DNA from: Mesorhizobium shangrilense
GTDB lineage: Bacteria; Pseudomonadota; Alphaproteobacteria; Rhizobiales; Rhizobiaceae
Assembly (NCBI RefSeq): GCF_028826155.1
Contig: NZ_JAQGPN010000001.1
Span: forward strand, 2,175,501 to 2,239,500
Direction of reading: 5' to 3'
Length of the DNA stretch: 64,000 nucleotides
The notes under the pieces: model-generated
The model's database searches: none
What the model was told of the DNA's origin: nothing
Seen by the model: the letters and a program-made list of their open reading frames with translations, nothing else
Shown here: positions 33,938 to 55,303 of the stretch, piece by piece
Numbering within the stretch: position 1 is the stretch's first letter
How the letters are laid out: every line of letters starts with the position of its first letter
Translations under genes and position numbers: made by a program

Positions 33938-34705
33938 ATGACTGCCCGATGGATCGAGGCAAATGGCGTTCAACTGCGTTACGACCTCACCACAGGCCCG
34001 CGCCTGACCGTCGTGCTCATCCATGAAATGGGCGGCACGCTGGAGAGCTGGGACGATGTCGTCGGGCCGCTGAGTGAATTCGCGTCGGTTCTGCGCTACG
34101 ACCAGCGCGGTGTCGGCCTGTCGGAGAAGGTTCCGGGACCGGTAACGATCGAGCAGCTTGCCGCGGACCTTGCAGGCCTTCTCGACGCGCTGGGAATCCG
34201 CCAGCCTGTCGCTGTGGCGGGCGTTGCAGTTGGCGCAGCCGTCGCCGCTGCCTTCGCCGCGCTCTATCCGTCCCGCATCGCCGCGCTGCTGATGCTGGCC
34301 CCGGCGACAGACCTCAGGGGAGCAAAGCGTGTCGCCGCCCTGCGCCGCATCGAGGCGATCGAGCGCGCCGGCGTGCGCGCCGCATTCGCCGATGCGCCGT
34401 CGAACGCGCCGGCGCGCTTCGCGGTCCTGCGGCTGACCTCCGACCCGATGGGATTGTGCGCGATCTGGCGCATGCTGGCCGATCTCGAAATGAGCCACCT
34501 CTTCTCCAGGATTGCCTGCCCGACGCTGGTGGCGGCGGCAATGCGCGACGCCGCGCGTCCGCCAGAGCACGTCTCGGACGTTGCAGACAGGATTCCCGGT
34601 GCGCGGCTGATTGCAATCGACACCACCCACTACATGGCTATCGAGACGCCGCAGCTGGTGGAGCGGACGATCGTCGGCTTTCTGAAGGATCGCGGCCTCG
34701 GGTGA
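33938..34705 (+). CDS. Alpha/beta-hydrolase fold protein lacking the nucleophile Ser
   Basis: A 255-residue alpha/beta-hydrolase fold protein of the 3-oxoadipate enol-lactonase/peroxidase-like group. It has the oxyanion-loop region LIHEMGGTLESWDD, RYDQRGVGLSEK and a C-terminal histidine in IDTTHYMAIETPQ. The nucleophile elbow reads G95-V-A97-V-G99: Ala replaces the catalytic Ser in GxSxG, confirmed in the DNA as GCA. The paralogue at 48234-48989 has Ala at the same residue number and the hydrolase at 54359-55303 also has Ala. It is therefore unlikely to be a Ser esterase and may be a lyase, a cofactor-free oxygenase-like enzyme or a binding protein. It follows the operator pair at 33773-33884. 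Confidence 0.85.
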   Translation: MTARWIEANGVQLRYDLTTGPRLTVVLIHEMGGTLESWDDVVGPLSEFASVLRYDQRGVGLSEKVPGPVTIEQLAADLAGLLDALGIRQPVAVAGVAVGAAVAAAFAALYPSRIAALLMLAPATDLRGAKRVAALRRIEAIERAGVRAAFADAPSNAPARFAVLRLTSDPMGLCAIWRMLADLEMSHLFSRIACPTLVAAAMRDAARPPEHVSDVADRIPGARLIAIDTTHYMAIETPQLVERTIVGFLKDRGLG

Positions 34706-34758
34706 AACCTGCTCGACCGAAACTCAAGGATATGCGCGGCCACGTCTGATTGCCCTGG

Positions 34759-34808
34759 GTCAACGAGTGAGGAAAAGTCAAGCGGCGTCCTGGATTAGTC
34801 GTTTGACG
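34759..34808. promoter_or_regulatory. Operator pair GTCAACGAGT / TTAGTCGTTTGACG upstream of the enoyl-CoA hydratase operon
   Basis: GTCAACGAGT (34759-34768) and the inverted TTAGTCGTTTGACG (34795-34808) flank 26 bp. The right arm is identical over 14 bases to the site at 49062-49075. TTGACG in the right arm may be the -35 of a promoter with a TACCGT-like -10. The hydratase start is 60 bases downstream. Confidence 0.55.
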
Positions 34809-34868
34809 CTGCGACCGACCATTTCTACCGTCCGGCTAAATTCGAAACGTGTGTGCAGGGGCCGGCAG

Positions 34869-35642
34869 GTGGGTACGGTAGGTTTCTCGATAGAGGGGAA
34901 TGTGGCGACGGTGACGCTCGACCGTCGCGAGGCGATGAATGCGATCGACCCCGAGACCGAGGCGGAGTTGCGCGCCGTTTGGCATCGCATCGATACCGAT
35001 CCCGCAATCCGCGCCGCCGTGGTGACGGGCGCCGGCGAGAAGGCATTTTCGGCAGGCGCGGATCTGAAGACGATGCCGCCGGCCGAAAGCTATGCGGGCA
35101 AGGCTTTCGGAGCGGGCGACGACAGTTTCGTTGCCGCCATGCCCAGGGAGAAGCCGCTCATCTGCGCAATCAATGGCTATGCGCTGGGCGGAGGTCTTGA
35201 GATCGCACTTGCCTGCGATATCCGCATTGCTGCGCCGCATGCCCGCTTCGGACTTCCCGAGGTCAAGGTCGGCACCATTCCGGGAGCCGGCGGAACGCAG
35301 CGCCTGCCGCGCACCATCGGCGCCAGCGACGCCATGCTGATGCTGCTCACGGGCGACATGGTCGACGCGACGGAAGCCTTGCGTCTCGGCCTCATAAGCC
35401 GCATCGTGTCTGTCGACAGTCTCCTCGCCGAAGCACAATCCCTGGCTCACAGGATCGCCTCGAATGCGCCGTTGTCGGTCCGTGCGATCAAGCGGCTTGT
35501 CGCCGACGGCGGCGCGCTGCCGATCGACCAGGCCGTCCGGCTGGAGCGGCTTGTCTGGGGGGTGCTACGCGACACCGAAGACCGCATCGAAGGGCGGCGC
35601 GCCTTCCAGGAGAAGCGCAAGCCGAACTATGTCGGAAAGTAG
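34869..35642 (+). CDS. Enoyl-CoA hydratase/isomerase (crotonase family)
   Basis: A 257-residue crotonase-fold enzyme. Diagnostic segments are ATVTLDRREAMNAIDPETEA, the oxyanion AFSAGADLKTM, CAINGYALGGGLEIALACDI, and the active-site region FGLPEVKVGTIPGAGGTQRL, in which a hydratase-type Glu is present. GTG at 34869 gives the standard length and sits behind AGGGGCC; the open frame continues upstream but has no homology-like content. It heads an operon with a CoA transferase and an ABC ATPase, so it probably hydrates an enoyl-CoA in the same beta-oxidation-like route. Confidence 0.9.
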   Translation: MGTVGFSIEGNVATVTLDRREAMNAIDPETEAELRAVWHRIDTDPAIRAAVVTGAGEKAFSAGADLKTMPPAESYAGKAFGAGDDSFVAAMPREKPLICAINGYALGGGLEIALACDIRIAAPHARFGLPEVKVGTIPGAGGTQRLPRTIGASDAMLMLLTGDMVDATEALRLGLISRIVSVDSLLAEAQSLAHRIASNAPLSVRAIKRLVADGGALPIDQAVRLERLVWGVLRDTEDRIEGRRAFQEKRKPNYVGK

Positions 35643-35709
35643 CAGCGATCTTCGCGGGGGGGCGAAGGATGACGGACTGTTCCGGTTATCAGAAGAGTTG
35701 GAACGCGGG

Positions 35710-36420
35710 ATGATCGACAAGCATGTGGAGGACGTCGCACAAGCGCTGTCGGGCATCGCCGACGGTGCGTCGGTGCTCGTCGGCGGCTTTGGTGCGGTGG
35801 GCCAGCCGAATGTGCTGCTGGACGCGTTGGGCGACAGCGGGGTCAGGAACCTCACGGTCATTGCCAACAACGCTGGTTTCGAACCCGAACTGGGACTGGG
35901 GCGGCTGATCGGGAGAGGCTGCGTCAGCAAGATGATCTGCAGCTTTCCACGCGGCTCCTCGACCTTCGACACGCTCTACCGAGCCGGCAAGATCGAGCTT
36001 GAGGTGGTGCCCCAGGGCACGCTGGCCGAACGCATTCGGGCGGGCGGCGCTGGCATACCCGCGTTCTATACGCCGACCGCCGTCGGGACGCAGCTTGCCG
36101 AGGGCAAGGAGACGAGGGTCTTCAATGGCCGCACCTACCTGATGGAACAAGCGCTTACCGCGGACGTCGCCATAATCGAAGCCTGGAACGCGGATCGCTG
36201 GGGCAATCTCACCTATCGCGGCAGCGGCCGGAACTTTAACCCGATCATGGCGATGGCCGGGCGGCTGACGATCGTGCAGGCGCAGCACCTGGTTCCACTA
36301 GGGAGCATTCTCCCGGACGATGTCGTCACGCCTGGCATCTTTGTGAACCGTGTCGTTCACGTGCCCTGCGGCGACCCGCCCGTCGCCAAGGTGGCAGCCG
36401 TGCAAGGAGGCAAGAAATGA
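35710..36420 (+). CDS. 3-oxoacid/3-oxoadipate CoA-transferase, subunit A
   Basis: A 236-residue alpha subunit of a two-component family I CoA transferase (PcaI/ScoA type), moving CoA from a donor such as succinyl-CoA to a 3-oxo acid. It begins MIDKHVEDVAQALSGIADGA and has the glycine-rich LVGGFGAVGQPNVLLDAL and NADRWGNLTYRGSGRNFNP segments. I chose the ATG at 35710 for fit to the family N-terminus; an ATG at 35629 would add 27 residues. The B subunit overlaps by 4 bp. Confidence 0.9.
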   Translation: MIDKHVEDVAQALSGIADGASVLVGGFGAVGQPNVLLDALGDSGVRNLTVIANNAGFEPELGLGRLIGRGCVSKMICSFPRGSSTFDTLYRAGKIELEVVPQGTLAERIRAGGAGIPAFYTPTAVGTQLAEGKETRVFNGRTYLMEQALTADVAIIEAWNADRWGNLTYRGSGRNFNPIMAMAGRLTIVQAQHLVPLGSILPDDVVTPGIFVNRVVHVPCGDPPVAKVAAVQGGKK

Positions 36421-37073
36421 CCGCGGGGCAGACCTATCGGGCATGGGACAAGGGCGAAATCGCCAAGCGCGTCGCCTCCGACATCCCGGAGGGATGGTAT
36501 GTGAATCTGGGCATTGGCCTGCCGACGCTGGTTGCCGATCACATTCCGCAGGACCGGGAAGTCGTCCTTCATTCCGAGAACGGCATTCTTGGCATGGGTC
36601 CGATCCCGACCCCCGACGAGGTCGATACTTGGCTGGTGAACGCCGGCAAGGAAAACGTCACGCTGGTTACCGGCGCTGCGCTCTTCCATCATGCCGACAG
36701 CTTCGCGATGATACGCGGCGGCCATCTAGACCTCTGCGTCCTGGGCGCCTTCGAAGTCGGGCAGAACGGGGACCTGGCCAACTGGACGACTTCCCTCAAC
36801 GATCGCGTGCCGGCAGTGGGCGGCGCGATGGATCTTTCGGTGGGCGCCCGCAATCTATGGGTCATGACAGCCCACACGACGAAGGACGGCGAAGCCAAGC
36901 TGGTGGAACGCTGCAGCTATCCATTGACGGCGTCGCAGGCTGTCACGCGTGTCTACACCGACCTTGCCGTGCTCGACATATCGCGGGGGGGATTTGTCGT
37001 CCTCGACATGGTCGAGGGACTGACGCGTGCGGCGCTGCAAGAGCTTACAGCCGCGCCGCTGCATTTTGCATAG
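36417..37073 (+). CDS. 3-oxoacid/3-oxoadipate CoA-transferase, subunit B
   Basis: A 218-residue beta subunit (PcaJ/ScoB type). It carries the catalytic glutamate in the HSENGILGMGP motif, the NLGIGLPTLVADHIP region and GGAMDLSVGARNLWVMTAHT. ATG at 36417 overlaps the subunit A stop. Together the pair would activate a 3-oxo dicarboxylic or related acid for thiolysis; the acceptor cannot be distinguished between acetoacetate, 3-oxoadipate and others. Confidence 0.92.
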   Translation: MTAGQTYRAWDKGEIAKRVASDIPEGWYVNLGIGLPTLVADHIPQDREVVLHSENGILGMGPIPTPDEVDTWLVNAGKENVTLVTGAALFHHADSFAMIRGGHLDLCVLGAFEVGQNGDLANWTTSLNDRVPAVGGAMDLSVGARNLWVMTAHTTKDGEAKLVERCSYPLTASQAVTRVYTDLAVLDISRGGFVVLDMVEGLTRAALQELTAAPLHFA

Positions 37074-38453: not shown

Positions 38454-39818
38454 TCAGGCCGCGAGCTCTGCGACTTTCCTGACGTCCTGCAAATGCAGCA
38501 GCCGATCAAACAGACGCCGGGCCTTCGGTTCGTCGAGCTGGGCTCGCGAGCAGGCTGCGAACTTGGTCCACAGCTCGTCCTCGCTCATGCGCCGCGTCCA
38601 GTGCCCCCGCGCATAAGGCACGCTCGGGCTTTCAAGCATCGTCCCGTTCTTCAGGTGGATGCGGATGCCGCCGCTGTATCCCAGGTTGGGCTGGGTATCG
38701 GCCGGGATCGTCTTGTCGGTCGCCGGCCTGATCACCTTCATCAGGGCCCGCACCTCCGGCCGGCTGTAGAATGCCTCCGACAACTCCTCGAACGTGCCCT
38801 GGCGGTTGACGATCGCACCGGCGACGGCGAGCTGGATGCTATGGCTCGGCACGAAGTTGATGGTCGACGGCGACTTCGAGACGACGGCGTATTGCGCTTC
38901 GCTGATGAGCACGTCGACATGTTCCACGGCATCGGGTGAAACGTCGTGCTGCTTGACCAGATCGATGGCGCCGTCGATGGCGCGCTGGTTCATGTTGCCG
39001 AACGGGTACTGCTTGATGTTTATGCCGACGGTCTCGAGGCGCCATGCCTTGCCGAGGTCGGTGATGGGCGTGTCGAGATCGACTGCTCCTTTCGGCGACA
39101 GCGCGACAAGCATGCCGCGCCCCGACCGTTCCAGGCCATCTTCGGGCGCCGTCATCCCGGCCTTGGCCAGGCGCGCAGCCAATACGCCGGCGGCGGACCC
39201 GCGCCCTACCTGGAAGGGGCCGACATCCGTGTCGAAGCTTGCGGTGATGCCGCCAGGCATTGCAGCTGCGATGCTGATCGCCCGCAGCGTCGTCTCCGTG
39301 TCGTAGCCGTGCAGGCTGCACACTGCGATGGCGGCGGCCGTAGGGCCGAAAGCAGCCGTCGCATGCCAGCCCTTGCCGGCATAGGAGTCCGGGTCGCGTT
39401 CGGACAGCCGCGCCCAGGCTTCGTATCCTGCCGCGTAGCCGCGCACCACGTCGCGTCCGGATGCGCCCGCCGCTTCGGCTTCGGCGATGAGCGCCGGCAT
39501 CAGGATCGTGCTGGTGTGGCATCCCGAGAAGGCGACGTCGTCATAGACCACGCTCGTCGTGGTGGCCGAATTGACCAGCGCCGCATCGACCGTCGAAGCG
39601 CGTTCCTGGCCGAGAAAGATGCTCGCGTCGCCCGTGTTGCCGCGTGTCCCGATCGCCTCCAGCGCGATTGTGGATACGGACGTGCCGATGCCCGACATCA
39701 TGACGCCGACCGTATCCGTCATGCCTATGTTGATCGCCTCGACCGCGATTGCGGGAAGCTCTTCGAACTTCAGATTCGCCGCAAACTCGGCCAGGGTGCG
39801 GGAGATAGGTGCAGGCAT
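38454..39818 (-). CDS. MmgE/PrpD family protein
   Basis: A 454-residue member of the 2-methylcitrate dehydratase / aconitate decarboxylase superfamily. Typical regions are ISRTLAEFAANLKFEELP, NSATTTSVVYDDVAFSGCHT with the segment preceding MPALIAEAEA, GYEAWARLSERDPDSYAGKG, WHATAAFGPTAAAIAVCSLH and NIKQYPFGNMNQRAIDGAID. ATG at 39818 follows GGAAAG. It ends the leftward operon GST, thiolase-like, DUF35, MmgE. The family includes dehydratases, decarboxylases and epimerases, so the precise reaction is open; a dehydration of a hydroxy-dicarboxylic acid would suit the context. Confidence 0.88.
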   Translation of the reverse strand: MPAPISRTLAEFAANLKFEELPAIAVEAINIGMTDTVGVMMSGIGTSVSTIALEAIGTRGNTGDASIFLGQERASTVDAALVNSATTTSVVYDDVAFSGCHTSTILMPALIAEAEAAGASGRDVVRGYAAGYEAWARLSERDPDSYAGKGWHATAAFGPTAAAIAVCSLHGYDTETTLRAISIAAAMPGGITASFDTDVGPFQVGRGSAAGVLAARLAKAGMTAPEDGLERSGRGMLVALSPKGAVDLDTPITDLGKAWRLETVGINIKQYPFGNMNQRAIDGAIDLVKQHDVSPDAVEHVDVLISEAQYAVVSKSPSTINFVPSHSIQLAVAGAIVNRQGTFEELSEAFYSRPEVRALMKVIRPATDKTIPADTQPNLGYSGGIRIHLKNGTMLESPSVPYARGHWTRRMSEDELWTKFAACSRAQLDEPKARRLFDRLLHLQDVRKVAELAA

Positions 39819-39965
39819 CGCAATCTTTCCTCTTCCTTGGATCTTGCATCGGACCATTGGACCGCCTGCCGCCGTGAGCAACCGAAGTTTCGGCAAGGGC
39901 GCGTGAGAAATCGTCCGGCGATCGTGGCGAGCCAACGCCGCGATCGCGCGAAAACCTGCGCCGCG

Positions 39966-40349
39966 TCAGGCCAGCTTGAACATCGGCAGACTTTCGTCGT
40001 CGGTCGTCTTTCGGATGGCGACCTCCACAGGCTTGCCAATTGCGATCGCCTCGAGGTCGCTGTCGACGATGTTGGTCATCATCGTAGGCCCCTCTTCGAG
40101 CGTCACGTAAGCGATGGCATAGGGCGGCTTCGCCACGCGCATGATGCTGTAGGAATAGATGACGCCCCGACCGCTGGCGTTCCGCCATTCCGTGTCCGGG
40201 CTATCGCAGAAGGGGCAGATGGCGCGCGGATACCAATGGGCTCGGCCGCAGCCGCGGCAGGCTTTGAACAGGAAACGTCGTTCGCCGAGCGCGGACCAGA
40301 AGGGTTGCGTTTCCGGATGGTGGTGGAGCGAACTGGACAAGACTGACAT
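39966..40349 (-). CDS. OB-fold/zinc-ribbon (DUF35) acyl-CoA-associated protein
   Basis: A 127-residue DUF35 protein: an N-terminal helix, a rubredoxin-like zinc ribbon (CRGCGRAHWYPRAICPFC, two CxxC pairs) and a C-terminal OB fold (GVIYSYSIMRVAKPPYAIAY, EGPTMMTNIVDSDLEAIAIG). Such proteins bind CoA esters and work with thiolase-like partners. The partner gene here ends seven bases upstream, so the two products very likely form one enzyme, as in Ltp2-type aldolases or BbsA-BbsB. Confidence 0.9.
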   Translation of the reverse strand: MSVLSSSLHHHPETQPFWSALGERRFLFKACRGCGRAHWYPRAICPFCDSPDTEWRNASGRGVIYSYSIMRVAKPPYAIAYVTLEEGPTMMTNIVDSDLEAIAIGKPVEVAIRKTTDDESLPMFKLA

Positions 40350-40355
40350 CGATTT

Positions 40356-41525
40356 CTACTCCCGCTCCATGATGAGTGTCGCCGATCCGTGCCGCGTGCC
40401 GAGAAGGCCGCCGGTGCCGTGCGCCAGCGCCAGGTCGCAATTGGCAACCTGTACGGCCGGATGCGCCTCGCCACGCAATTGACGAACCGCCTCGATGATC
40501 TTGGTCATCCCGCCTCGATGGTTGGGATGGTTGTTGCACAGCCCGCCGCCATCGGTGTTGAAGGGCAGCCTGCCGACGCCGGAAATCAGGTTGCCGTCGG
40601 CGACGAACCGGCCGCCTTCGCCCTTCCGGCAGAAGCCGAGGTCCTCCAGCTGGATGATCACGGTCATGGTGAAGCTGTCGTAGAGCGAGACATACTTGAT
40701 ATCGGTGGGCTTCAACCCGGCCTCGGTGAAGGCAAGCGGGCCGCTGCGCGCCCCGGCGGAATAGGTCAGGTCGACGTCGCCGCCTGATAGGTGCTTGATC
40801 GCCTCGCCGGCGCCGCGCACTTTCACCAACGGACGCTTGAGGCTGCGGGCTATCTCGGGCCGGGTCACGATCACCGCGCCGCCGCCGTCGCTTATGACGC
40901 AGCAATCCAGGCGTCGCAAGGGATCGGCGACCACCGGCGAATTCGCCACGTCCTCGACGGTGACGACGTCACGCAGCATTGCGTTCGGATTGTGCTGCGC
41001 GTGGTGCGAGGCGGCCACCTTCACCCAGGCCAGCTGGTCGCTGGTCGTACCGAATTCATGCATGTGCCGCATCGCGCACATCGCATAGGCATTAAGCGTC
41101 GTCATGCCGAAGGCCTGTTCCCAGGGGAAGTCCGGCTGGACGGGGTTGTCGGTGCGCTGAGGCGGACCCTTTTGCAGGCTCTCGCTGCGCGGGCGTCCAG
41201 CGAGCGTGATCAGCGCGACATCACATTTGCCTGCGGCGATCGCCTGGGCGGCATGATTGACATGGAGGATGTAGGAGGAGCCGCCGATGTTGGTGGAATC
41301 GGCATGGCGTACCTTGAGGTTCATGTACTCGACCAGCGAAAGCGGACCGGTGCCGGGCGCATCGCCGCCGCAGAAATAGCCGTCGACGTCATCCTTGCTC
41401 AATCCGGCATCCGCCAGCGCGCCGAGCGCGACCTCGGCATGGAGTTGGGCAACGGATTTGTCGGGGGCCTTGCGGGTAGGATGTTCGTAGGCGCCGACAA
41501 TGTAGGCCATGCCATTGATGCTCAT
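40356..41525 (-). CDS. Thiolase-like protein (SCP2-thiolase/Ltp2/BbsB type), catalytic Cys absent
   Basis: A 389-residue thiolase-fold protein. The fold is clear (AYIVGAYEHPTRKAPDKSVA, ALADAGLSKDDVDGYFCGGD, DCCVISDGGGAVIVTRPEIA, PFNTDGGGLCNNHPNHRGGM). At the place of the nucleophilic Cys it reads STNIGGSSYILHVNHAAQAI, with no Cys, so classical Claisen thiolysis is unlikely. Proteins of this kind with a DUF35 partner act as retro-aldolases or specialised thiolases. The DUF35 gene lies immediately downstream, and the start overlaps the GST-like gene by 4 bp. Confidence 0.88.
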   Translation of the reverse strand: MSINGMAYIVGAYEHPTRKAPDKSVAQLHAEVALGALADAGLSKDDVDGYFCGGDAPGTGPLSLVEYMNLKVRHADSTNIGGSSYILHVNHAAQAIAAGKCDVALITLAGRPRSESLQKGPPQRTDNPVQPDFPWEQAFGMTTLNAYAMCAMRHMHEFGTTSDQLAWVKVAASHHAQHNPNAMLRDVVTVEDVANSPVVADPLRRLDCCVISDGGGAVIVTRPEIARSLKRPLVKVRGAGEAIKHLSGGDVDLTYSAGARSGPLAFTEAGLKPTDIKYVSLYDSFTMTVIIQLEDLGFCRKGEGGRFVADGNLISGVGRLPFNTDGGGLCNNHPNHRGGMTKIIEAVRQLRGEAHPAVQVANCDLALAHGTGGLLGTRHGSATLIMERE

Positions 41526-42184
41526 GTTGTCCCTGTTTTCTCTGCCTGCCCCGCCTTCAAGAGGGCCTGTTCATCGAAATATGTTGTCGCAACAACCGAA
41601 GGCCGCTTGCCGATCTCTTCGAACCAGCGCGCCAGAGCCGGAAACCGAACGCGCCACGTCGCTTCCTCCTGAAGACGGAAATCCAGGTAGCAAAGTGCAG
41701 CGACAATGGAGATTTGCGCCATGTCGAACGGCGCCCGCGTCATGGCCGCAGCGTCGTCGTCCAGCGTGGTGAAGATGCGCGGCAGTTTATGCCGGATGAC
41801 GTCGATGCGCCTCTCCGAATGCCCTGGCTGGCGTCGGCTGTATTCCGACAGCAGGGCCATAAGCAGCGCGATGAGGCCGTCTCCCAGCGCCAACCGCCGC
41901 ATCATGGCAATCTCCGCCGCGGGATCGCGCGGATGCAAAGCGCCGGTTCCGAGAATGAGATCGAGGTGGCGACAGATGACCGCCGAATCGTAAAGGACGG
42001 AGCCATCGTCCAGGGCAAGAGCCGGAATCTGGCTGAGCGGGGTGACGTCGAGCAGCGTGTGATTGGATGTCAGCGTGCTGACGACCACAGGCTCCAGCAC
42101 GATGTCGTCGATCGTTCCCGTCTCGTGGGCGGCGATCAGAACCTTGCGGACATAAGGCGATCTGGACGACCCGTAAAGTTTCAT
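41522..42184 (-). CDS. Glutathione S-transferase family protein
   Basis: A 220-residue GST-fold protein. The N-terminal thioredoxin-like domain begins MKLYGSSRSPYVRKVLIAAH, with a Ser-rich active-site segment rather than Cys, followed by LLDVTPLSQIPALALDDGSV and the YDSAVICRHLD glutathione-binding turn; an all-helical C-terminal domain follows. ATG at 42184 gives the canonical start. It is the first gene of the leftward operon ending in MmgE/PrpD, and could act as a glutathione-dependent isomerase, lyase or dehalogenase in that route. Confidence 0.88.
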   Translation of the reverse strand: MKLYGSSRSPYVRKVLIAAHETGTIDDIVLEPVVVSTLTSNHTLLDVTPLSQIPALALDDGSVLYDSAVICRHLDLILGTGALHPRDPAAEIAMMRRLALGDGLIALLMALLSEYSRRQPGHSERRIDVIRHKLPRIFTTLDDDAAAMTRAPFDMAQISIVAALCYLDFRLQEEATWRVRFPALARWFEEIGKRPSVVATTYFDEQALLKAGQAEKTGTT

Positions 42185-42376
42185 CGTTCGCCGTCTTCCA
42201 TCATTCGAAAAAGTCAACAATACAGCCGTTTACCCGGACGTGGCGATGGAAGCCTAGCGACTCTGCGGCTGTTACGAAGGGATGTAAGAATCGCAGCTAC
42301 AACAGTTGATCGACAACCCGAATTGCGTCAACATCGACAACAACCGCGCGCCTAAAGAAGTCGAATTCGCGCCAGC

Positions 42377-42426: not shown

Positions 42427-43377
42427 ATGTCAAAACGACTCCCTCCGCTGAATGCGCTGCGCGCCTTTGAAGCCGCGGGACGCCACGTCAGCTTTACCAA
42501 GGCTGCCGAAGAGTTGTTCGTCACCCCCGGCGCCATCAGCCGTCAGATAAAGTTGCTTGAAGACGTGCTGGGATTGGAGCTGTTCGAACGCACGAGCCGC
42601 GACCTGCGGATTCCCGACGAAACGCGGGAATATGCGATCGCGCTCGGCGACGCCTTCGAGCAGATCAACCGCGCGACCAAGCGGCTGCTGACCGCGCATC
42701 GCGCGCGCTCAATGCGCATTCATTGCCCGATGACGTTCACGCTGCGGTGGCTGATGCCGCGCCTCCCGCTGTTCCATCGCCTCTACCCGACGCGGGAAAT
42801 CCAACTGACGACCACGCTTTTGCCGATCCCCGCCAACCTGCTCTATCTGGGGGATGTCGATGTCGTCATCCAGATGGGCAAGGGCGACTGGCCGGACCTG
42901 GTTGCGCATCGGCTTGCCGGCAGTGCGCTGATCCCGGTCTGCAGCCCGGCCTACGTCGCTGCTATGGGCGGAAAGATGACCGTGGAGATGCTGGCGGAAG
43001 CCACCTTGCTTCGGTCCATGGCCCGTCCCGACGACTGGCGCGACTGGCTCGACGCCGCCGGTGGCCAAAGCATCGACGACCAACGTGGACTGCATTTCGA
43101 AAGCTCGAGCCTCGCCTATCAGGCGGCGATCGAAGGCATCGGCATCGCCATCGGCCAGGTATCCCTGATTGCGGAGGACCTGGTGGCTGGACGCCTGGTG
43201 ACGCCGATCGATTTCGTCCACGACAACGGCAACGCCTACTACCTGACCTATGCCAAGCACTCGGAGAGCGACCCGAGACTGGTCGAATTCCGGGAATGGA
43301 TACTGGGTCAGGTGGTCGAGTTCGAGGCCTGGCTGGCGAAATCCGAACAGCGCCCCGCCGGCCTGGCGCTCAGCTAG
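42427..43377 (+). CDS. LysR-family transcriptional regulator (GcvA-like)
   Basis: A 316-residue LysR-type regulator. The N-terminal HTH reads LPPLNALRAFEAAGRHVSFT, KAAEELFVTPGAISRQIKLL and LGLELFERTSRDLRI; the remainder is a periplasmic-binding-protein-like effector domain. It is divergent from the GST operon and convergent with the CaiB operon, overlapping its last gene by eight bases. It is the only regulator gene inside the 33.7-55.6 kb catabolic region and thus the leading candidate to recognise the recurrent GTTTGAC-type sites. The effector is probably a pathway intermediate. Confidence 0.92.
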   Translation: MSKRLPPLNALRAFEAAGRHVSFTKAAEELFVTPGAISRQIKLLEDVLGLELFERTSRDLRIPDETREYAIALGDAFEQINRATKRLLTAHRARSMRIHCPMTFTLRWLMPRLPLFHRLYPTREIQLTTTLLPIPANLLYLGDVDVVIQMGKGDWPDLVAHRLAGSALIPVCSPAYVAAMGGKMTVEMLAEATLLRSMARPDDWRDWLDAAGGQSIDDQRGLHFESSSLAYQAAIEGIGIAIGQVSLIAEDLVAGRLVTPIDFVHDNGNAYYLTYAKHSESDPRLVEFREWILGQVVEFEAWLAKSEQRPAGLALS

Positions 43378-45615: not shown

Positions 45616-46343
45616 CTCAGAGTGCGTTCCCAAAGCATGAACATCTTTGCCCAGGTCGCTTCCGCAGCCTGCGGCTGGTAGGCGCGACCGGCGGCGAAGC
45701 AGTAGCCGTGGTGGCTGTCGGGATGAATCTCGATTTCGTGCTTGATGCCGGATGCTTCGAGCGCCGATCGCACCGCGGCGACGGTTTGCGGTGGAGTGGC
45801 CGTATCGGTTTCCGCTATGCCGAAGTAGAGTTCGCCCCGCACCTGCGACATCAGCTTGTGCGGCGAGCCGTCGTCTTCGGTCACAAGCCCGACGCCGTAG
45901 AGTGAAGCCGCGGAGGCGAAGCGTTCGCCGAAATAGGCCATCAGCGATACGACGTAGCGGCCGCTCATGCAGAAGCCTACGCAGGAGACCTTGTCGGACT
46001 TGGCTTCCGCCTCGCCGTCGAGGAACGCCAGCAAACCGGCCGTGTCTTCGTTGACGAAATCGTTGTCGAGACTGCGCAGGCAGGCGCCTACCACCGCCGA
46101 CATGCGCTCGTCGCGCCGGGGCAGGTCGAAACGGACGACGCCCAATCGGTAGTACATGTCGGGCAGCACGCAGTAATATCCCCGGGCAGCGATGCGCCGC
46201 GCCATGTCGCGCAGCTCCTCGCGGATCCCCGGGGCGTCCATGTACAGGATGACCACCGGGTACGGCCCGTTTCCATCCGGCCGAACCGCAAATGTCGGCA
46301 TCCGGCCATGCTTGGTGACGACGGCTACTTCCTTCTCATGCAT
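45612..46343 (-). CDS. Dienelactone hydrolase family protein
   Basis: A 243-residue alpha/beta hydrolase of the dienelactone hydrolase family, with an intact cysteine-type nucleophile elbow: GFCMSGRYVVSLMAYF contains GxCxG. Other segments are GNGPYPVVILYMDAPGIREE, GYYCVLPDMYYRLGVVRFDL and the C-terminal HPDSHHGYCFAAGRAYQ with the histidine. ATG at 46343 overlaps the preceding DUF35 gene by eight bases. It is the only alpha/beta hydrolase in this island with a normal nucleophile and may open a lactone or hydrolyse a CoA ester or enol ester. Confidence 0.9.
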   Translation of the reverse strand: MHEKEVAVVTKHGRMPTFAVRPDGNGPYPVVILYMDAPGIREELRDMARRIAARGYYCVLPDMYYRLGVVRFDLPRRDERMSAVVGACLRSLDNDFVNEDTAGLLAFLDGEAEAKSDKVSCVGFCMSGRYVVSLMAYFGERFASAASLYGVGLVTEDDGSPHKLMSQVRGELYFGIAETDTATPPQTVAAVRSALEASGIKHEIEIHPDSHHGYCFAAGRAYQPQAAEATWAKMFMLWERTLR

Positions 46344-46764
46344 GTTCTTCACGTTTCGACTTTGGGGTTGGATGGTCCGCCAGGCTGAAGGCGTGCTGGG
46401 TTCGGTTGAGATGCGGACGATAGGTGATGGTAACGGGCTGGTCGATCCAGCTTCCCTCGGGCTCCCCGCCCACCAGATTGGAGACGACGATCGGGCCTTC
46501 GGCAAGCCGCACCGCTATGACGTTGTATGGCGGCGGATGATCCTCGAAGTACTGCCGGTGGAAGACGACCCAGGACAGGATTTTTCCCTCTCCGGAGATC
46601 TCGGTCCACGCATAGTCCAGCGAGTTGCATTCTGCGCATACCGGTCCCGGCGGATAGCGGAACGTTCCGCAATGCGAGCACTTCGGGAGAGCCATCCTTT
46701 CCCGCTGGATGCTTTCCCACATCGGTTGGTCGTAGAGTGTCAGGATACGTTGCGCGTTGGCCAT
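46336..46764 (-). CDS. OB-fold/zinc-ribbon (DUF35) protein, second copy
   Basis: A 142-residue DUF35 protein with a zinc ribbon (CSHCGTFRYPPGPVCAEC) and an OB fold (EGKILSWVVFHRQYFEDHPP, EGPIVVSNLVGGEPEGSWID). The ATG at 46764 follows the thiolase-like stop by four bases. It should form a complex with the thiolase-like protein encoded upstream. It is the second such pair in 8 kb and diverges clearly from the one at 39966-40349. Confidence 0.9.
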   Translation of the reverse strand: MANAQRILTLYDQPMWESIQRERMALPKCSHCGTFRYPPGPVCAECNSLDYAWTEISGEGKILSWVVFHRQYFEDHPPPYNVIAVRLAEGPIVVSNLVGGEPEGSWIDQPVTITYRPHLNRTQHAFSLADHPTPKSKREEHA

Positions 46765-46768
46765 CGTT

Positions 46769-47935
46769 CTAGCGTCCGTAGATGATCGCGACGGCCTTGC
46801 CGGCGACGTCGGAACTGTAGTGGACATGGCGACAGTTCGGGACCTGGCGTTCGCCGGCTTCACCGCGAACCTGCCGCACGGCTTCGATCTGGTGGTTCCA
46901 GCCCTGCATGTAGCTTTCCGAGAGATGGCCGCCGCCGGTGTTGAGCGGCAGTCCCCTGGCGAGCGAGATGCCGTGCTCGCGCATGAACTTTCCGGCCTCG
47001 CCGGTTCCGCAATAGCCATAGCCTTCGAGCGCCAGCGGGATGTGCAGCGAAAAACTGTCGTAGATCTGCAAGGCGTCCATGTCGCCCGGCCCGAGCGACG
47101 CCATGCCGAACACCTGCTCGGCGACCAGCTTCTGCGCGGGCTGGTAGTAGTCGGTCAGGCGCGGCTCGAGGCTCGTGGCGCCACGATTGAGGTCGTGTCG
47201 CCCAACCGCGTGGATGGCCACCGGAGCCCGGCCGATACGCTTGGCTCTCTCCGCCTCGGCGACGATCAGGGCGACGCCGCCGTCATTGATCAGGCAATAG
47301 TCGAAAATGTGCAGTGGCTCGCAGATGAAAGGCGAGGCAAGATAGTCGTCGATGGTGATGGGCTTGCGCATCAGGGCGGCGGGATTGCGCGCGGCCGCCA
47401 TTCGCTGCGCCACCGCCACTTCGCCGAGCTCTGCATGGCTCATGCCGCGCTCCTGCATGTAGCGGCGCGCCATCAGCGCATAGAGCGCGCCCTGCGAGGT
47501 GAACCCCCAGGGAGCGTGATAGACGTATGAAAGAAACGCGCCGCCGCCCTGGGCGTCGGCGCCGCCGTAGTTGACCGCGGCGGAGCGCTGATCGTTGCCA
47601 TAGACGAGGGCAACGACCTCGGCCAGGCCGGCATGGATCGCCTGGCAGGCCTCCATCACTCCCAGCATCGCATCGGCCTGTCCGCCCCAGCGCACGTCCA
47701 GGCCAAGCAGCTCGCCGACGCGCTCATAGGCCGTGGTCGGACCGACGATCAGGCCGTCGATGTCGTTGCGGGAGATGCCGGAATCCGCGAGCGCGGATAC
47801 AAAAGCTTGCGCGGCATAGCCGTTGGAATCGTGAGGTTTCTCGCCGGACCTGACGCGCGCGTGATCGCCCACCCAATCCGTCTGGCCGATGCCGATAACC
47901 GATGCTGTTCTGGGCGCCATTCCGGCAATTGTCAT
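46769..47935 (-). CDS. Thiolase-like protein, second copy, catalytic Cys absent
   Basis: A 388-residue thiolase-fold protein: ASVIGIGQTDWVGDHARVRS, ALADSGISRNDIDGLIVGPT, DYCLINDGGVALIVAEAERA and LNTGGGHLSESYMQGWNHQI. Where thiolases carry the reactive Cys it has RWGGQADAMLGVMEACQAIH, with no Cys at the elbow. ATG at 47935 is preferred over an in-frame GTG nine bases upstream. It leads the operon thiolase-like, DUF35, DLH, CaiB, CaiB, which recalls bbs-type toluene pathway modules without the glycyl-radical enzyme. Confidence 0.88.
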   Translation of the reverse strand: MTIAGMAPRTASVIGIGQTDWVGDHARVRSGEKPHDSNGYAAQAFVSALADSGISRNDIDGLIVGPTTAYERVGELLGLDVRWGGQADAMLGVMEACQAIHAGLAEVVALVYGNDQRSAAVNYGGADAQGGGAFLSYVYHAPWGFTSQGALYALMARRYMQERGMSHAELGEVAVAQRMAAARNPAALMRKPITIDDYLASPFICEPLHIFDYCLINDGGVALIVAEAERAKRIGRAPVAIHAVGRHDLNRGATSLEPRLTDYYQPAQKLVAEQVFGMASLGPGDMDALQIYDSFSLHIPLALEGYGYCGTGEAGKFMREHGISLARGLPLNTGGGHLSESYMQGWNHQIEAVRQVRGEAGERQVPNCRHVHYSSDVAGKAVAIIYGR

Positions 47936-48068
47936 TGGTTCCACGTCACGGCCAGTCGTTCAAAGGGCGGCCGCCTCTCTTGTCATTCGGTAGGGCGCTT
48001 TCCCCGCAGGTTAGCCCGCGTGGAAACCTCTCATCACGGTCGCAAGCCTTCTTGGATCACCGCTGCCA

Positions 48069-48233: not shown

Positions 48234-48989
48234 GTGAACATGCAGTGGCTCGAGGCGAATGGCGCACGGTTTCGCTACGACCATCGGCGGCGGTCCGCCG
48301 GCACCATCGTTTTCCTTCACGAGATGGGCGGGACGCTGGAGAGCTACGATGCGCTCGTGGAGAAGATTGGCGGCCGCTGGAGCATGCTGCGCTATGACCA
48401 GCGCGGAGCAGGGTTTTCCAGCAGGTTCTCCGGACCGCTGTCCGTGGATGGTCCAGCCGGGGATCTGGAAGCGCTCCTCGACGCGCTGTCGATAGACAAG
48501 CCCGTTGCCGTGGTCGGCGCGGCCGTTGGCGCCGCGGTTGCGATACGGTTCGCAACCCGCTGTCCCGCAAGAACAAGCGCGCTCGTGCTGCTGGCGCCGT
48601 CAACGTGTCTTCTTCCCGAACGCCGCACGGCAACGCTTGAGAAGATCGCCAGGCTGGAGCGGGAGGCCCTGTTGGCCGACGGCGGCGGTGAACCGACAAG
48701 CTTCGATGCTGGACCGCCGCCGCGGGACGCGGCGAGCTACGCCGCCACCTGGCGGATGCTGGCCGAGCTCGACCTCGAAGCGGATCTCGCCAGCATCGCC
48801 TGCCCGACCCTGGTGGTCGCGGGGCTGAACGACGTCGATCGCCCGTCGGCCCACGTGGCGGAGGTGGCCGGCAAGATACCGGGTGCGCGCCTGGCCACTC
48901 TCGGGGCCGGACATGTGATGGCCGTCGATGCCCCCGACCTCGTGGCTGCGACGCTCACCGCGTTCCTCGACGGTGCGGGCTTCAAATGA
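48234..48989 (+). CDS. Alpha/beta-hydrolase fold protein lacking the nucleophile Ser, paralogue
   Basis: A 251-residue paralogue of the protein at 33938-34705, sharing FLHEMGGTLESYDA, MLRYDQRGAGFSS and a final histidine in LGAGHVMAVDAPD. The nucleophile elbow is G95-A-A97-V-G99, again Ala instead of Ser. GTG at 48234 is favoured by AGGGGG ten bases upstream; an ATG lies six bases later. It is divergent from the thiolase-like operon. Two paralogues sharing the same substitution argue against a random inactivating mutation. Confidence 0.85.
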   Translation: MNMQWLEANGARFRYDHRRRSAGTIVFLHEMGGTLESYDALVEKIGGRWSMLRYDQRGAGFSSRFSGPLSVDGPAGDLEALLDALSIDKPVAVVGAAVGAAVAIRFATRCPARTSALVLLAPSTCLLPERRTATLEKIARLEREALLADGGGEPTSFDAGPPPRDAASYAATWRMLAELDLEADLASIACPTLVVAGLNDVDRPSAHVAEVAGKIPGARLATLGAGHVMAVDAPDLVAATLTAFLDGAGFK

Positions 48990-49061
48990 TGGCCATCGGC
49001 TACGCGGATTGCTCTTGCGGCTGCCGCCGTCCTTTGAGGAAACCTCATGGGTGCGGTCTAT

Positions 49062-49075
49062 TTAGTCGTTTGACG
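49062..49075. promoter_or_regulatory. TTAGTCGTTTGACG site upstream of the ABC importer operon
   Basis: Fourteen bases identical to 34795-34808, 101 bases upstream of the binding-protein start. No clear inverted partner is seen here. TTGACG may form the -35 element. The identity links this importer operon to the operon that carries its probable ATPase (37204-38379). Confidence 0.55.
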
Positions 49076-49176
49076 ATTCCGGGCTCCGGCAAGCAACATG
49101 CAGCCAGCATGAGCCAGCGGAAAGCCTGCGGCTCGGCGCATTGAGCTTGCCAAATCGTGAATGGGAGGGACCAGAC

Positions 49177-50229
49177 ATGCAGACGAGACGGGGCATTCTT
49201 AAACTGGCGGGCGCGGCGTTGGCGATTTCGGTCGCCGGCGCCGCTGCACAGGCCGAACCATCGCAGCAGTTGATCGATGCGGCCAAGGCCGAAGGGCAGG
49301 TTGTGTGGTACACCGGGCTCATCGTGCCGCAGGTGGTCCGCCCGCTCGCGGAAGGGTTCGCCGCCAAATACGGTATCGAGGTGAAATACGCCACGACGAG
49401 CGACGCGGATACCGTCCTGAAGGTCACCAGCCAGGCGCGCGCCGGAAAGATGGAAGCCGATCTGTTCGATACGCCCGGCACGGCCATTCCGCCCTTGGGC
49501 GCTGCGAACCTGATCGAGCCCTATGTTCCCGACGCACTGGCGAACTACGACAAGATCTTCAAGCCCGATTCCAAACTCTACTCAGGCATTTACACGCTCT
49601 TCCTGACGACCAACTACAACACGGACCTGGTCAAGGCCGAAGACGCGCCCAAGACCTACGATGATCTGCTCGACCCGAAATGGAAGGGCAAGATGGTGTG
49701 GACCGATACGCGCGGCGTGTCCGGCCCTGCCGGGTTCATCGGCAATGTGCTGACGACCATGGGCGAAGAAAAGGGCATGGAATACCTGACCAGGCTCAGC
49801 GAGCAGGAGATCGCGCGCGATCCCGGCAACCAGCGGGTCGTGATCGACAAGGTAATTGCCGGCCAGTACGAGATCGGCCTGATGACCTACAACCATCACG
49901 CGGTGATCAGCAAGGCCAAGGGGGCGCCGATCGCGTGGGTCAAGATGGAGCCGCTCACGGCCAATCTCGGCGCAATTTCGATCGTCAAGAACGCGCCTCA
50001 TCCCAATGCCGCGAAACTGTTCCTCGAGTACATGTTCTCAAAGGAAGGGGCGACGATCATCCGCGAGGCGAACTATCCTCCGGGTCATCCCGACGTGCCT
50101 GCAAAGGAACCGTCGATCAGCCCGATCACCGGAAACTTCAAGTTCACGCTGCTCGCGCCCGATATCGCTTCGCAGGAAGCGGATCCGCTGAAGACATGGC
50201 TCAAGATCTACGACGAGCTGTTCAAATGA
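49177..50229 (+). CDS. ABC substrate-binding protein, Fe3+/AfuA-FutA-like family
   Basis: A 350-residue periplasmic binding protein. The leader MQTRRGILKLAGAALAISVA has a twin-arginine pair and an Ala-rich core ending near AQAEP. The body shows KAEGQVVWYTGLIVPQVVRP, LFDTPGTAIPPLGAANLIEP, FLTTNYNTDLVKAEDAPKTY and EYMFSKEGATIIREANYPPG, characteristic of iron/2-aminoethylphosphonate/thiamine-type binders. ATG at 49177 follows GGGAGGGA. Despite the family name, ferric iron is not assured; in this catabolic context an organic anion is as likely. Confidence 0.9.
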   Translation: MQTRRGILKLAGAALAISVAGAAAQAEPSQQLIDAAKAEGQVVWYTGLIVPQVVRPLAEGFAAKYGIEVKYATTSDADTVLKVTSQARAGKMEADLFDTPGTAIPPLGAANLIEPYVPDALANYDKIFKPDSKLYSGIYTLFLTTNYNTDLVKAEDAPKTYDDLLDPKWKGKMVWTDTRGVSGPAGFIGNVLTTMGEEKGMEYLTRLSEQEIARDPGNQRVVIDKVIAGQYEIGLMTYNHHAVISKAKGAPIAWVKMEPLTANLGAISIVKNAPHPNAAKLFLEYMFSKEGATIIREANYPPGHPDVPAKEPSISPITGNFKFTLLAPDIASQEADPLKTWLKIYDELFK

Positions 50230-51983
50230 CAGCCATCGTTGATGGTTCAGCACAAGATGCGCGGCCTCCGGTTCTGGAGGCCGCGCATCGTTCCCGCTAT
50301 CAGGACCCGTTGTGGCTGCTGTCGCTGGCGATGGTTGTGATCGTGGCGTGTCTCGTGTTGCCGCCGTTCTTCAGCCTGGTGCGGAACAGTCTTTTCGAAC
50401 TGATGCCGGACGGCTCGGCGGGCGCCTTCACTCTCGACAACTTCGCACGCCTGTTCTCGACCGGGCAATTCGTGCAGAGCACCATCAACTCGTTCGTGTT
50501 CGCGTTCCTGTCCACCGTCCTGGCGATCCTGATGGGGGGCGGCCTGGCGTGGATCGTCGAGCGCACCAACGCGCCGTTCCGCGATCTCGCCTATCTGATG
50601 ACGGTCGTGTCGCTCAGCATTCCGGGCGTCATCTACGTGCCGGCCTGGCTGTTCTTCCTCGGCCCCACCGGCCCGCTGAACGACCTCTACCGGCTCGCGG
50701 GCGGCGACGGCATGCTGTTCAACGTCAGTTCGATGACCGGCATGGTGATCATCGAAGGCTTTGCCTGGATTCCGCTGACCTTTCTGCTTTTTGCCGCAAG
50801 CTTCCGCATGGCAAATGCCGAACTCGAGGAAGCCGCGCGCATGAGCGGCGCGAGCGTCTTCGAGATGATGCGCCGTGTGTCGATCCCACTCGCGGCGCCG
50901 GCGGCCTTTGCGGCCGCGCTGTTCATCTTCATCCGTTCGCTGCAGGCCTTCGACATCCCGAAACTGGTCGGAACCGGGGCCGGCATCAAGCTCCTGACCA
51001 CCGACATCTACGACAGTATCCGGTCGGTGCCGCCGCAAATCGGTCACGCCAGCGCGTTCTCGGTGGCGCTCACCGTCCTGGTCGCCGGGCTCCTGCTCCT
51101 CTACAGCCGGCTGGCCCTGAACGCCTCGCGCTATGCGACGGTGACGGGCAAGGGGTACCGGCCGAGGCCACTTGCGCTCGGCTGGGCGCGGTGGATCTGC
51201 GGCGCCATCGTCATCATGAACGTGATGGTCGTTCTGGCGCTGCCCCTGTTGACCCTGCTCTGGATCGCGGTGACGCCCTTTGTGCGGCCGGTACGTCTGG
51301 CGGCATTTTCTTCCCTAACATGGGAGAACTTTGCCACGGTGCTTTCCGATGACCGCTACTTCGAGCTGATCACCAATACGCTGATCGTGTCCGCGTCGGC
51401 GGCGACCGTGACGATGATGCTGACGGTGGTCTGCGGCTGGCTGGTGGCCAGGCGGCGCGTGTACCATACGGTGCTCGACCAGATGATCGCGTTGCCGATG
51501 CTCATCCCGTCGATCGTGCTCAGCGTGGCGATGATGGATCTGGCGCTTCGTTCGCCGATCCCGCTCTACTCAACCCTGACCATCGTCGTCATCGCCTTCG
51601 TCGTGCACTATCTGCCCTTCGGCATGCGATATACGTTCACCGGCGCCCTCCAGCTCCATAAGGAACTGGAAGAGTCGGCGGGGGTGTGCGGTGCGTCGCC
51701 GCTCGTCATGCTGCGCCGGGTCGTCATCCCGCTGCTGATGCCGTCGATCGTCGCCGGCTGGCTGTTCGTCTTCCTCAACGCGTCGCGCGACCTGTCGACG
51801 GCGATCATCCTGGCCGGGCCGGACACCAAGACGATCGCGGTGGCGATCTTCGACCAGGCGATCAACGGCCAGTTCAGCGAAGTCGCCGCCCTCGGGTTGC
51901 TTTGGTCGCTGATGATGAGCGTCGTCGCCATGGCCTTCTATTTCCTGATGCAGCGCCGCTCGGGCAACGGCATGTCGTTCTGA
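50226..51983 (+). CDS. ABC transporter permease, FbpB-type with two fused permease domains
   Basis: A 585-residue membrane protein with roughly twelve helices, containing two binding-protein-dependent permease domains in one chain. EAA-type loops are ELEEAARMSGASVFEMMRRV in the first half and ELEESAGVCGASPLVMLRRV in the second. ATG overlaps the binding-protein stop (ATGA). No ATPase follows; the FbpC/PotA-type ATPase at 37204-38379 is the likely partner. Confidence 0.92.
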   Translation: MTAIVDGSAQDARPPVLEAAHRSRYQDPLWLLSLAMVVIVACLVLPPFFSLVRNSLFELMPDGSAGAFTLDNFARLFSTGQFVQSTINSFVFAFLSTVLAILMGGGLAWIVERTNAPFRDLAYLMTVVSLSIPGVIYVPAWLFFLGPTGPLNDLYRLAGGDGMLFNVSSMTGMVIIEGFAWIPLTFLLFAASFRMANAELEEAARMSGASVFEMMRRVSIPLAAPAAFAAALFIFIRSLQAFDIPKLVGTGAGIKLLTTDIYDSIRSVPPQIGHASAFSVALTVLVAGLLLLYSRLALNASRYATVTGKGYRPRPLALGWARWICGAIVIMNVMVVLALPLLTLLWIAVTPFVRPVRLAAFSSLTWENFATVLSDDRYFELITNTLIVSASAATVTMMLTVVCGWLVARRRVYHTVLDQMIALPMLIPSIVLSVAMMDLALRSPIPLYSTLTIVVIAFVVHYLPFGMRYTFTGALQLHKELEESAGVCGASPLVMLRRVVIPLLMPSIVAGWLFVFLNASRDLSTAIILAGPDTKTIAVAIFDQAINGQFSEVAALGLLWSLMMSVVAMAFYFLMQRRSGNGMSF

Positions 51984-52868: not shown

Positions 52869-52937
52869 CCGCACCGTCCTTCGACGCCAGTCATTCCGCA
52901 TGGCCTCGAACCCTCCCAGCCTCACAGCGTCGGCCTC

Positions 52938-54140: not shown

Positions 54141-54213
54141 AACCGGCGGATTGTCCGGCGGCAAGTCGACGTTCGGTCCGATAATCCAGATTCGGCGGCC
54201 GCAGAATAGATTT

Positions 54214-54246
54214 CGTCAAACGGCATTGCGAATTAGTTGTTTGACG
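54214..54246. promoter_or_regulatory. Operator pair CGTCAAAC / GTTTGACG upstream of the third alpha/beta hydrolase
   Basis: A perfect 8-bp inverted repeat (54214-54221 and 54239-54246) separated by 17 bp. The right arm lies in TTAGTTGTTTGACG, one base different from the sites at 34795 and 49062. The shorter spacing makes this the clearest dimeric site. It is 113 bases upstream of the TTG start of the hydrolase. Confidence 0.6.
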
Positions 54247-54358
54247 ATTTGTCCTATTCTTTCGACCATCCCCCTCGTTCAGAGCGAAGTCCAGCAGCCA
54301 GCCGAGCGGATTAAAGCACCGCCACGGTGAAGTGTGCTCGAAAGAGGGAGGAATGTAA

Positions 54359-55303
54359 TTGACTGATCAACTTGGTGTCATCAATCGCCGCTCGGCGTTC
54401 AAGGCCGCTTTGCTGGGCGTCGCGGCTTCGGCGATCGCCGCGCCGTGGCAGCCGGCAGCGGCCCAGGCTGCCGAGGATCCCGGCGTCGTGCCGACGCCCT
54501 TGCCGCAGCAGAAGCCCCAGAAGGAAGAACTGCTCGATGTCGGCGACGGGCATTCGATCTGGTATTTCGACACGGGCGGCGACGGCGAGGCGGTGGTGTT
54601 CCTGCACGCCGGCACCGGCAGCGGCGCGGTGTGGGGCTATCAACAGCCGGTGTTCGCAGATGCGGGCTATCGCGTCATCGGCTACTCGCGACGCGGCCGG
54701 CTCAACGCGAAGATGGGCGATCCCGAAAAATCGGGCACGGGAGCCGATGACCTGCTGAAGCTCATCGACCACCTCGGGCTGAAGAAGGTCCATCTCGTCG
54801 GCACTGCCGCCGGCGGCATGGTCGCGACCGACTTCACGGTTTCGCATGAGGACCGCGTGCAGTCGCTCGTGCTCGCCAACACCATCGTCGGCATCACCAA
54901 CGAAGAGTATCGCGCCATCTACAAGCTGATCTATCCGGAGGGCTTCGACGATCTGGCCGGCGATTTCAAGGAGCTCAGCCCGTCCTATCGCCATCTGGAT
55001 CCAAAGGGCCATGCGACCTGGAACGAACTGGAGCACAAGGCCAAGATTGGGAAGATGAAGAGCCAGAGCTACGCCAACAAGGTGGTGTGGGAGCATCTCG
55101 CCGCCTGGAAGCTGCCCGTGCTCGTGCTTACCGGCGATGCGGACCTCTATACGCCGCCGTCGATGCTGCGCGTCCAGCACGGCGCCATTCCCGGCGCGGA
55201 GAAGTTCATCGTTCCCGAATGCGGCCATTCGGCCTACTGGGAACGGCCCGAGATCTTCAACCGCATCGTTCTCGACTTCATCGGCCGCAACAAGGCGGCC
55301 TGA
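54359..55303 (+). CDS. Exported alpha/beta-hydrolase fold protein lacking the nucleophile Ser
   Basis: A 314-residue protein with a twin-arginine leader (NRRSAFKAALLGVAASAIAA) and an alpha/beta-hydrolase body: VVFLHAGTGSGAVWGYQ, VIGYSRRGRLNAK, an acid-region LTGDADLYTPPSM and the histidine in VPECGHSAYWERP. The elbow reads G148-T-A150-A-G152 (codon GCC at the nucleophile), so Ser is again missing. Translation appears to start at TTG 54359, seven bases after GGGAGG. It is monocistronic and closed by a strong hairpin. It could be a periplasmic lyase or binding protein acting on the same compound class as its cytoplasmic relatives. Confidence 0.85.
   Translation: MTDQLGVINRRSAFKAALLGVAASAIAAPWQPAAAQAAEDPGVVPTPLPQQKPQKEELLDVGDGHSIWYFDTGGDGEAVVFLHAGTGSGAVWGYQQPVFADAGYRVIGYSRRGRLNAKMGDPEKSGTGADDLLKLIDHLGLKKVHLVGTAAGGMVATDFTVSHEDRVQSLVLANTIVGITNEEYRAIYKLIYPEGFDDLAGDFKELSPSYRHLDPKGHATWNELEHKAKIGKMKSQSYANKVVWEHLAAWKLPVLVLTGDADLYTPPSMLRVQHGAIPGAEKFIVPECGHSAYWERPEIFNRIVLDFIGRNKAA

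Follow-up and report, generated by a model that had tools for sequence, protein, structure and literature searches.

Two alpha/beta-hydrolase-fold families with a fixed alanine at the nucleophile elbow in a catabolic gene cluster of Mesorhizobium shangrilense: probable candidates for nucleophile-free acid-base catalysis

What chemistry is left to an alpha/beta-hydrolase fold whose nucleophile has become an alanine? The question is raised by a 64,000-nucleotide stretch of the Mesorhizobium shangrilense genome (contig NZ_JAQGPN010000001.1, positions 2,175,501 to 2,239,500; hereafter the window), where a sequence-only reading had noticed three alpha/beta-hydrolase genes (A, B and C; Table 1) with Ala at the nucleophile position and had proposed for them a purposeful, non-hydrolytic function. 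Open reading frames, codons and matches to alpha/beta-hydrolase models in Pfam and NCBIfam, with Pfam Abhydrolase scoring above its cut-off, agreed on the fold and on the elbows of all three proteins. The elbow codons all specify alanine (Table 1), so the replacement is encoded in the DNA. Superfamily members are expected to carry Ser, Cys or Asp at the elbow together with a catalytic acid and a His; A, B, C and their families have Ala at the first of these positions, and the acid and the His are retained (Asp204/His231 in A, Asp262/His290 in C).

The position of the alanine was examined in AlphaFold2 models built from the family alignments of A and C, and the elbow of B was placed by alignment to A. 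In the model of A (mean predicted local distance difference test score, pLDDT, 96.1), Ala97 alone links strand 91-96 to helix 98-109; in that of C (mean pLDDT 91.5), strand 144-149 and helix 151-166 are separated by Ala150 alone. Because in both models strand 5 leads into the helix through this alanine alone, the alignment is not shifted and a nucleophile hidden at a neighbouring true elbow is ruled out; the fold and the catalytic His region are likewise kept, as first read. In the host genome, the 28 matches to PF00561 correspond to 26 proteins, whose elbows comprise 20 Ser, one Asp, one Cys, three Ala and one that was not aligned. A, B and C are the only Ala elbows among the 25 aligned proteins and all lie within the window; alanine at three neighbouring elbows is not chance.

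The replacement is also fixed in homologues from other genomes. Among the homologues listed for A (120 of 1774 found, one being the window's own protein) and for C (120 of 1783 found), Ala occupied the elbow in 119 of 119 and 120 of 120 other proteins, respectively. Merging the A and B lists and adding both queries gave 204 rows (A and B counted twice each), of which 189 have Ala and 15 Ser, the latter all distant matches of B. The putative acid-base pair was nearly invariant as well: Asp204 and His231 were each present in 188 of the 189 A/B rows with Ala, and Asp262 and His290 in 120 and all of the 121 C rows. A profile scan of genome contigs gave the same picture. Of 369 A/B relatives, the best 80 (on 78 contigs) all aligned Ala to the elbow column, clearly in 79 and ambiguously in L046, whose gene is without two residues just before the elbow Ala (VALA-AVGG) and reflects either decay of this copy or a slip in the assembly. 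Such fixation rules out an isolated error or degenerating genes as the source of the alanine. The same profile scored 86 Ala rows, including A and B, at 261 bits or more and Ser proteins of the PcaD type at 196 bits or less, a gap that later matches narrowed (an Ala protein with HELGG at 231 bits, a Ser protein at 208 bits). The third relative in the host genome, C1:4192206, has Ser (GLSVGG).

Other residues distinguish the two families from their Ser relatives. We compared 23 of 30 Ser relatives, leaving out P0310, with 82 distinct Ala rows for A/B and 68 for C, and called a residue family-specific when under a fifth of the Ser relatives had it and it was fixed, or almost fixed, across the Ala family. 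Six positions qualified in A/B (Glu30 in 80 rows, Met31 in 79, Ser37 in 81, Arg178 in 79, Met179 in 79 and Arg207 in 82), and seven in C, each in all 68 rows (Ser110, Arg111, Glu205, Tyr210, Arg211, Trp221 and Trp294). The fixed charged residues would suit an active pocket better than decay. The HEMGG motif also provides a simple marker for correcting the annotation of A/B proteins: many named relatives of A among the listed matches are annotated by a source as 3-oxoadipate enol-lactonase, and a Ser-to-Ala elbow is easily misread as a dead enzyme or passed over when the name "hydrolase" is copied on.

Both families were compared with the characterized systems they most resemble. Scores for A, B and C (126.6, 121.3 and 97 bits) all fell below the cut-off of 255.85 for the PcaD enol-lactonase model TIGR02427, which rules out an ordinary PcaD; the PcaD structure 2xua has Ser in GLSMGG where A/B have Ala, together with HEMGG and Arg207. 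C also scored below the cut-off of the meta-cleavage product hydrolases BphD/MhpC (69.1 against 462.15 bits, TIGR03343). RutD from E. coli (PDB 3v48) has a natural Ala (GHALG), with an Asp and a His that align to those of A; unlike A/B, it has neither HEMGG nor Arg207, and the scores of A, B and C against TIGR03611 (67.7, 65.9 and 67.6 bits) are far below the cut-off of 238.5. RutD belongs to a catabolic operon with a luciferase-like oxygenase. Its supposed contribution to carbamate breakdown is a model, and the accessible part of PMC8113886 describes a test in which the gene proved dispensable. In the cofactor-free dioxygenase HOD, according to the excerpted text of PMC10548524, the substrate loses its proton to the His-Asp pair and Ser can be dispensed with; AqdC carries a natural Ala. 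Similarity to these proteins is weak (B against the HOD-like chain 6ra2, E 2.1e-5) in searches run with no dedicated profile, and the absence of a HOD-like chain among the 50 VIA matches listed excludes nothing. A nucleophile-free kind of alpha/beta-hydrolase is already known from RutD and AqdC, which lowers the novelty; the A/B and C families differ by motifs of their own and by scores below the PcaD, RutD and BphD cut-offs. Titles and abstracts yielded no literature on either family, and no title among the listed matches dealt with such a cluster, which does not prove absence; the portion of PMC7034887 at hand contains nothing on Ala elbows.

How often was the Ser lost? The initial interpretation, a parallel loss in three proteins, did not hold. 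A and B are paralogues that share 46% identity and belong to a single Ala family, which rules out three independent losses; they fall in one well-supported group of the tree with C in another. An approximately unbiased (AU) test on 80 rows, for which 11 of 91 rows were dropped (seven Ser, two Gly, one Asp and P0310), did not reject holding A/B and C together (p-AU 0.466). With A and B in one family and this value, one or two losses are left, and both appear compatible with the tree. In the tree of all 91 rows, P0310, which has an Ala elbow and lacks HEMGG, was placed apart from the A/B group; RutD and P0310 are additional Ala proteins of unsure placement.

Because the alanine is fixed, the His-Asp pair is kept and HOD/AqdC and RutD provide precedents, we prefer a reading in which both families have given up covalent, acyl-enzyme catalysis. 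They would probably act on a catabolic intermediate by acid-base catalysis that needs no nucleophile, the likeliest reaction being a proton transfer accompanied by C-C or C-X cleavage. The His-Asp pair could serve as general base and acid, the oxyanion hole could stabilize an enolate-like anion and the Arg residues could hold an acidic substrate. Protons would then move and a C-C or C-X bond would be made or broken without a nucleophile, in a reaction of the tautomerization, retro-aldol/lyase or decarboxylation type. The substrate may be an intermediate in a catabolic route that receives its input from the ATP-binding cassette (ABC) importer and from F420- or flavin-dependent redox chemistry, and the step may come just before the coenzyme A (CoA)-dependent ones catalyzed by CoA-transferases, enoyl-CoA hydratase and thiolase-like aldolases. 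A and B would work in the cytoplasm, and C, whose N-terminus reads by eye as a twin-arginine signal, would be exported and may act on a compound outside. Of the 120 C homologues, 61 carry an RR motif within the first 45 residues; the N-terminal part is short in 46 of the 120. An Ala that is fixed alongside a retained His-Asp pair would mean that this fold has been put to nucleophile-free use in a single type of catabolic cluster. To this extent the non-hydrolytic function first proposed is supported as a non-covalent one; the sequence does not choose among lyase, isomerase, oxygenase and binding.

Several observations weigh against this reading. A neighbour census with our own open-reading-frame caller recovered the A/B gene in 66 of the 80 loci (the anchored loci); at least five of 11 core families were present in 12 of these, a point in favour of the reading, and fewer than five in the other 54. 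Neighbourhoods vary by lineage, and therefore a single shared reaction is not assured. A C-family protein, in L117, has a Gly elbow (GTGAG), and ligand binding can also account for the fixed residues.

Hydrolysis could persist without an acyl-enzyme if the His-Asp pair activated water, or if Glu30 of the A/B family acted as nucleophile or base, on a lactone, a carbamate or an enamine. We regard this as unlikely, as family C has Ala at the position of Glu30 and the activity of RutD itself is not proven in the part of PMC8113886 available. Rather improbable, in our view, is a non-catalytic role, in which the proteins would be ligand-binding sensors or partners and C an exported binding protein, much as the NDRG-like proteins offer a parallel. 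The lost nucleophile fits such a role, as does the predicted export of C and of the Ala-elbow protein of L112 and L057 described below; against it, His and Asp are nearly invariant, and other polar residues are kept, in rows with as little as about 34% identity to the window proteins for A/B and 44% for C, and a pseudoenzyme would need none of them. Least credible among these alternatives is a cofactor-free dioxygenase of the HOD/AqdC type, with the His-Asp pair deprotonating the substrate and O2 held in the oxyanion hole beside Ala: the Ala of AqdC, the match of B to 6ra2, the longer O2 residence of the S101A variant in HOD simulations (in the same excerpt of PMC10548524) and the several flavin or luciferase-like oxidoreductases beside A/B genes in other loci suit it, but PcaD matches far better, 6ra2 ranks 29th for B and is not among the best 60 of 106 matches for A or the best 60 of 137 for C, and nothing typical of N-heteroaromatic degradation was recognized in the cluster.

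Other nucleophile-less proteins also turn up near A/B genes in these clusters. Using a custom profile, we searched 89 loci for further alpha/beta-hydrolases. An unrelated protein with an Ala elbow (GHAYG) and, by eye, a signal peptide lies beside A/B in L112 (11345-12286) and L057 (near 12334); the two copies are 56% identical, and the protein looks like a stand-in for C. A Gly-elbow family (GLGFG; VVGLGFGGW) from Acetobacteraceae occurs near A/B in L038, L069, L070 and L078, and its gene directly follows the A/B gene in 3 of the 66 anchored loci. A luciferase-like monooxygenase is present in L038, L069 and L070 and an HpaB-type monooxygenase in L069, L070 and L078 (the L070 copies are annotated). 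The same search found 13 other alpha/beta-hydrolases with Ser, Cys or Asp in the A/B loci. Of the 21 alpha/beta-hydrolases that these loci contain in addition to A/B and C, 8 are nucleophile-less, versus 0 of 22 in the host genome (Fisher p 0.0014), or 3 of 10 when collapsed by hand to families (p 0.024), an enrichment that serves as a lead only, because its rows are partly orthologous and come from other genomes than the control. It hints that nucleophile-less proteins may work together in these clusters. A more tentative extension, which we hold to be possible rather than probable, is that a dispersed nucleophile-free class (A/B, C, the L112/L057 protein and the Gly-elbow family of Acetobacteraceae) repeatedly gathers in one kind of catabolic cluster and carries out a cofactor-free reaction new for the fold. 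The substrate would be an intermediate produced by F420 or flavin enzymes, and one partner would act extracellularly and one or two within the cell.

The three genes had also been described as sharing one operator type, hence as co-regulated. GTCAAAC-type sites do lie upstream of A, B and C (Table 1), and the A-site pattern, allowing up to three mismatches, occurs four times where 0.43 are expected. Nine copies of a looser motif were found in the window; 30 base-composition shuffles average 3.6, so single copies of it mean little. Footprinting of aligned orthologous upstream regions of A and B placed the motif among the conserved blocks, the first B site being kept in L075, L081 and L012 and the second in L075 and L081. 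Among 15 loci hand-picked for similar clusters, nine have the motif upstream of the A/B-type gene, and it was not found there in L013, L021, L064, L083, L023 and L076; over whole loci, its density ranges from 0 to 0.29 per kb. A shared regulator is likely for A and B, and its extension to C is plausible. The LysR gene of the cluster is a candidate regulator by position only.

Table 1. Positions of the three Ala-elbow genes, their putative operators and the surrounding cluster in the window
Feature	Position	Strand	Description
Gene A	33938..34705	+	255 aa, alpha/beta-hydrolase fold; elbow G-V-Ala97-V-G, Asp204, His231, HEMGG (29-33), Arg207, Arg178
Ala97 codon of A (nucleophile elbow)	34226..34228	+	GCA
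Gene B	48234..48989	+	251 aa, paralogue of A; elbow G-A-Ala97-V-G
Ala97 codon of B (elbow)	48522..48524	+	GCC
Gene C	54359..55303	+	314 aa, alpha/beta-hydrolase fold, TTG start; elbow G-T-Ala150-A-G, Asp262, His290; also Arg111, Glu205, Arg211, Trp221
Ala150 codon of C (elbow)	54806..54808	+	GCC
Putative operator upstream of A	33771-33785 and 33870-33884	.	inverted pair GGTCAAACGAGTTAA
Putative operator upstream of B	48069-48077 and 48171-48179	.	inverted pair GTCAACCGA
Putative operator upstream of C	54213..54247	.	inverted repeat TCGTCAAAC / GTTTGACGA
Extra motif copy	49061..49075	-	in the interval separating B from the gene for the ABC substrate-binding protein
F420 genes beside A	27029-33857		CofG-like and CofH radical-SAM genes, CofD, CofC/CofE fusion, Fno-like, luciferase-like oxidoreductase
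Enoyl-CoA hydratase family (PF00378)	34767..35642	+	directly downstream of A
3-Oxoacid CoA-transferase subunits A, B	35557..37073	+	TIGR02429, TIGR02428
MmgE/PrpD family	38454..39839	-
DUF35/ChsH2-type OB protein and thiolase-like partner	39966..41525	-
Glutathione S-transferase (GST) family	41522..42220	-	recurrent neighbour of A/B-type genes
LysR regulator	42427..43377	+	recurrent in cluster
Two class III CoA-transferases	43370..45633	-
Dienelactone hydrolase family	45612..46343	-
Second DUF35 protein and thiolase-like partner	46336..47944	-
ABC importer	49141..51983	+	substrate-binding protein and permease; ATPase at 37204-38379

The conserved cluster in which A and B lie comprises CoA-transferases, pairs of thiolase-like and DUF35 proteins, GST, enoyl-CoA hydratase, the ABC importer and sometimes F420 synthesis. 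Other arrangements occur elsewhere. A gene of the metallo-beta-lactamase fold directly follows the A/B gene in 18 of the 66 anchored loci, 14 of the 18 being from Bradyrhizobium (L016, L017, L019, L020, L022, L025, L029, L033, L034, L039, L045, L046, L047, L054, L062, L063, L066 and L068); one representative protein is AidB-like (213 of 360 bits). A divergent GST gene lies upstream of the A/B gene in 14 of the 66, all from Acetobacteraceae or Rhodopila. A GST-like gene was also seen upstream of the Gly-elbow C-family gene in L117.

Family C is the rarer one, with matches at E 1e-50 in 3 of 385 genomes of the class, two of them from one genus and the third being the genome of the window itself. 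A/B scores of at least 262 bits were reached in five of the 385, among them all three C genomes; the other 22 genomes in the A/B count scored 197 bits or less, and the five of these inspected have Ser. C was found in 3 of 398 genomes of the phylum sample; among these three, G671 lacks an A/B match at E 1e-60. The A-type protein P0003, the B-type P0245 and the C-type P0121, each on a contig whose length is given as 25,484, are presumed to share a single contig. Stop codons inside the matched frame were noted in L101 (G195:C40; one TAA), G114:C14 (one TAG) and G383:C31 (one TAG).

The F420 genes beside A were recognized by Pfam (CofH, CofC/CofE) or by reading the translations (CofD, Fno); the luciferase-like oxidoreductase is of the F420 type, and relatives of these genes adjoin the A-type gene in L009 and L010 and partly in L086. 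CofG and CofH are separate genes in the window. Proteobacteria have a fused FbiC, and their use of F420 is an open question, according to the section available of a review (PMC8498797); the cluster is a concrete place to ask why some of them make the cofactor.

Thiolases usually carry a nucleophilic Cys at a position where the first thiolase-like protein of the cluster has Gly-Ser-Ser. Cys-less thiolase folds may thus serve as aldolases in this cluster too. Each of the two thiolase-like proteins has a DUF35 protein as its partner, an arrangement that the abstract of PMC12329534 describes for Sal and the DUF35 domain of Shy. Farther upstream, at 3155-9172, the translations read as large and small subunits like those of methylmalonyl-CoA mutase, an acyl-CoA-ligase-like protein and a MeaB-like GTPase, which suggests a carbon-skeleton mutase pathway in the window.

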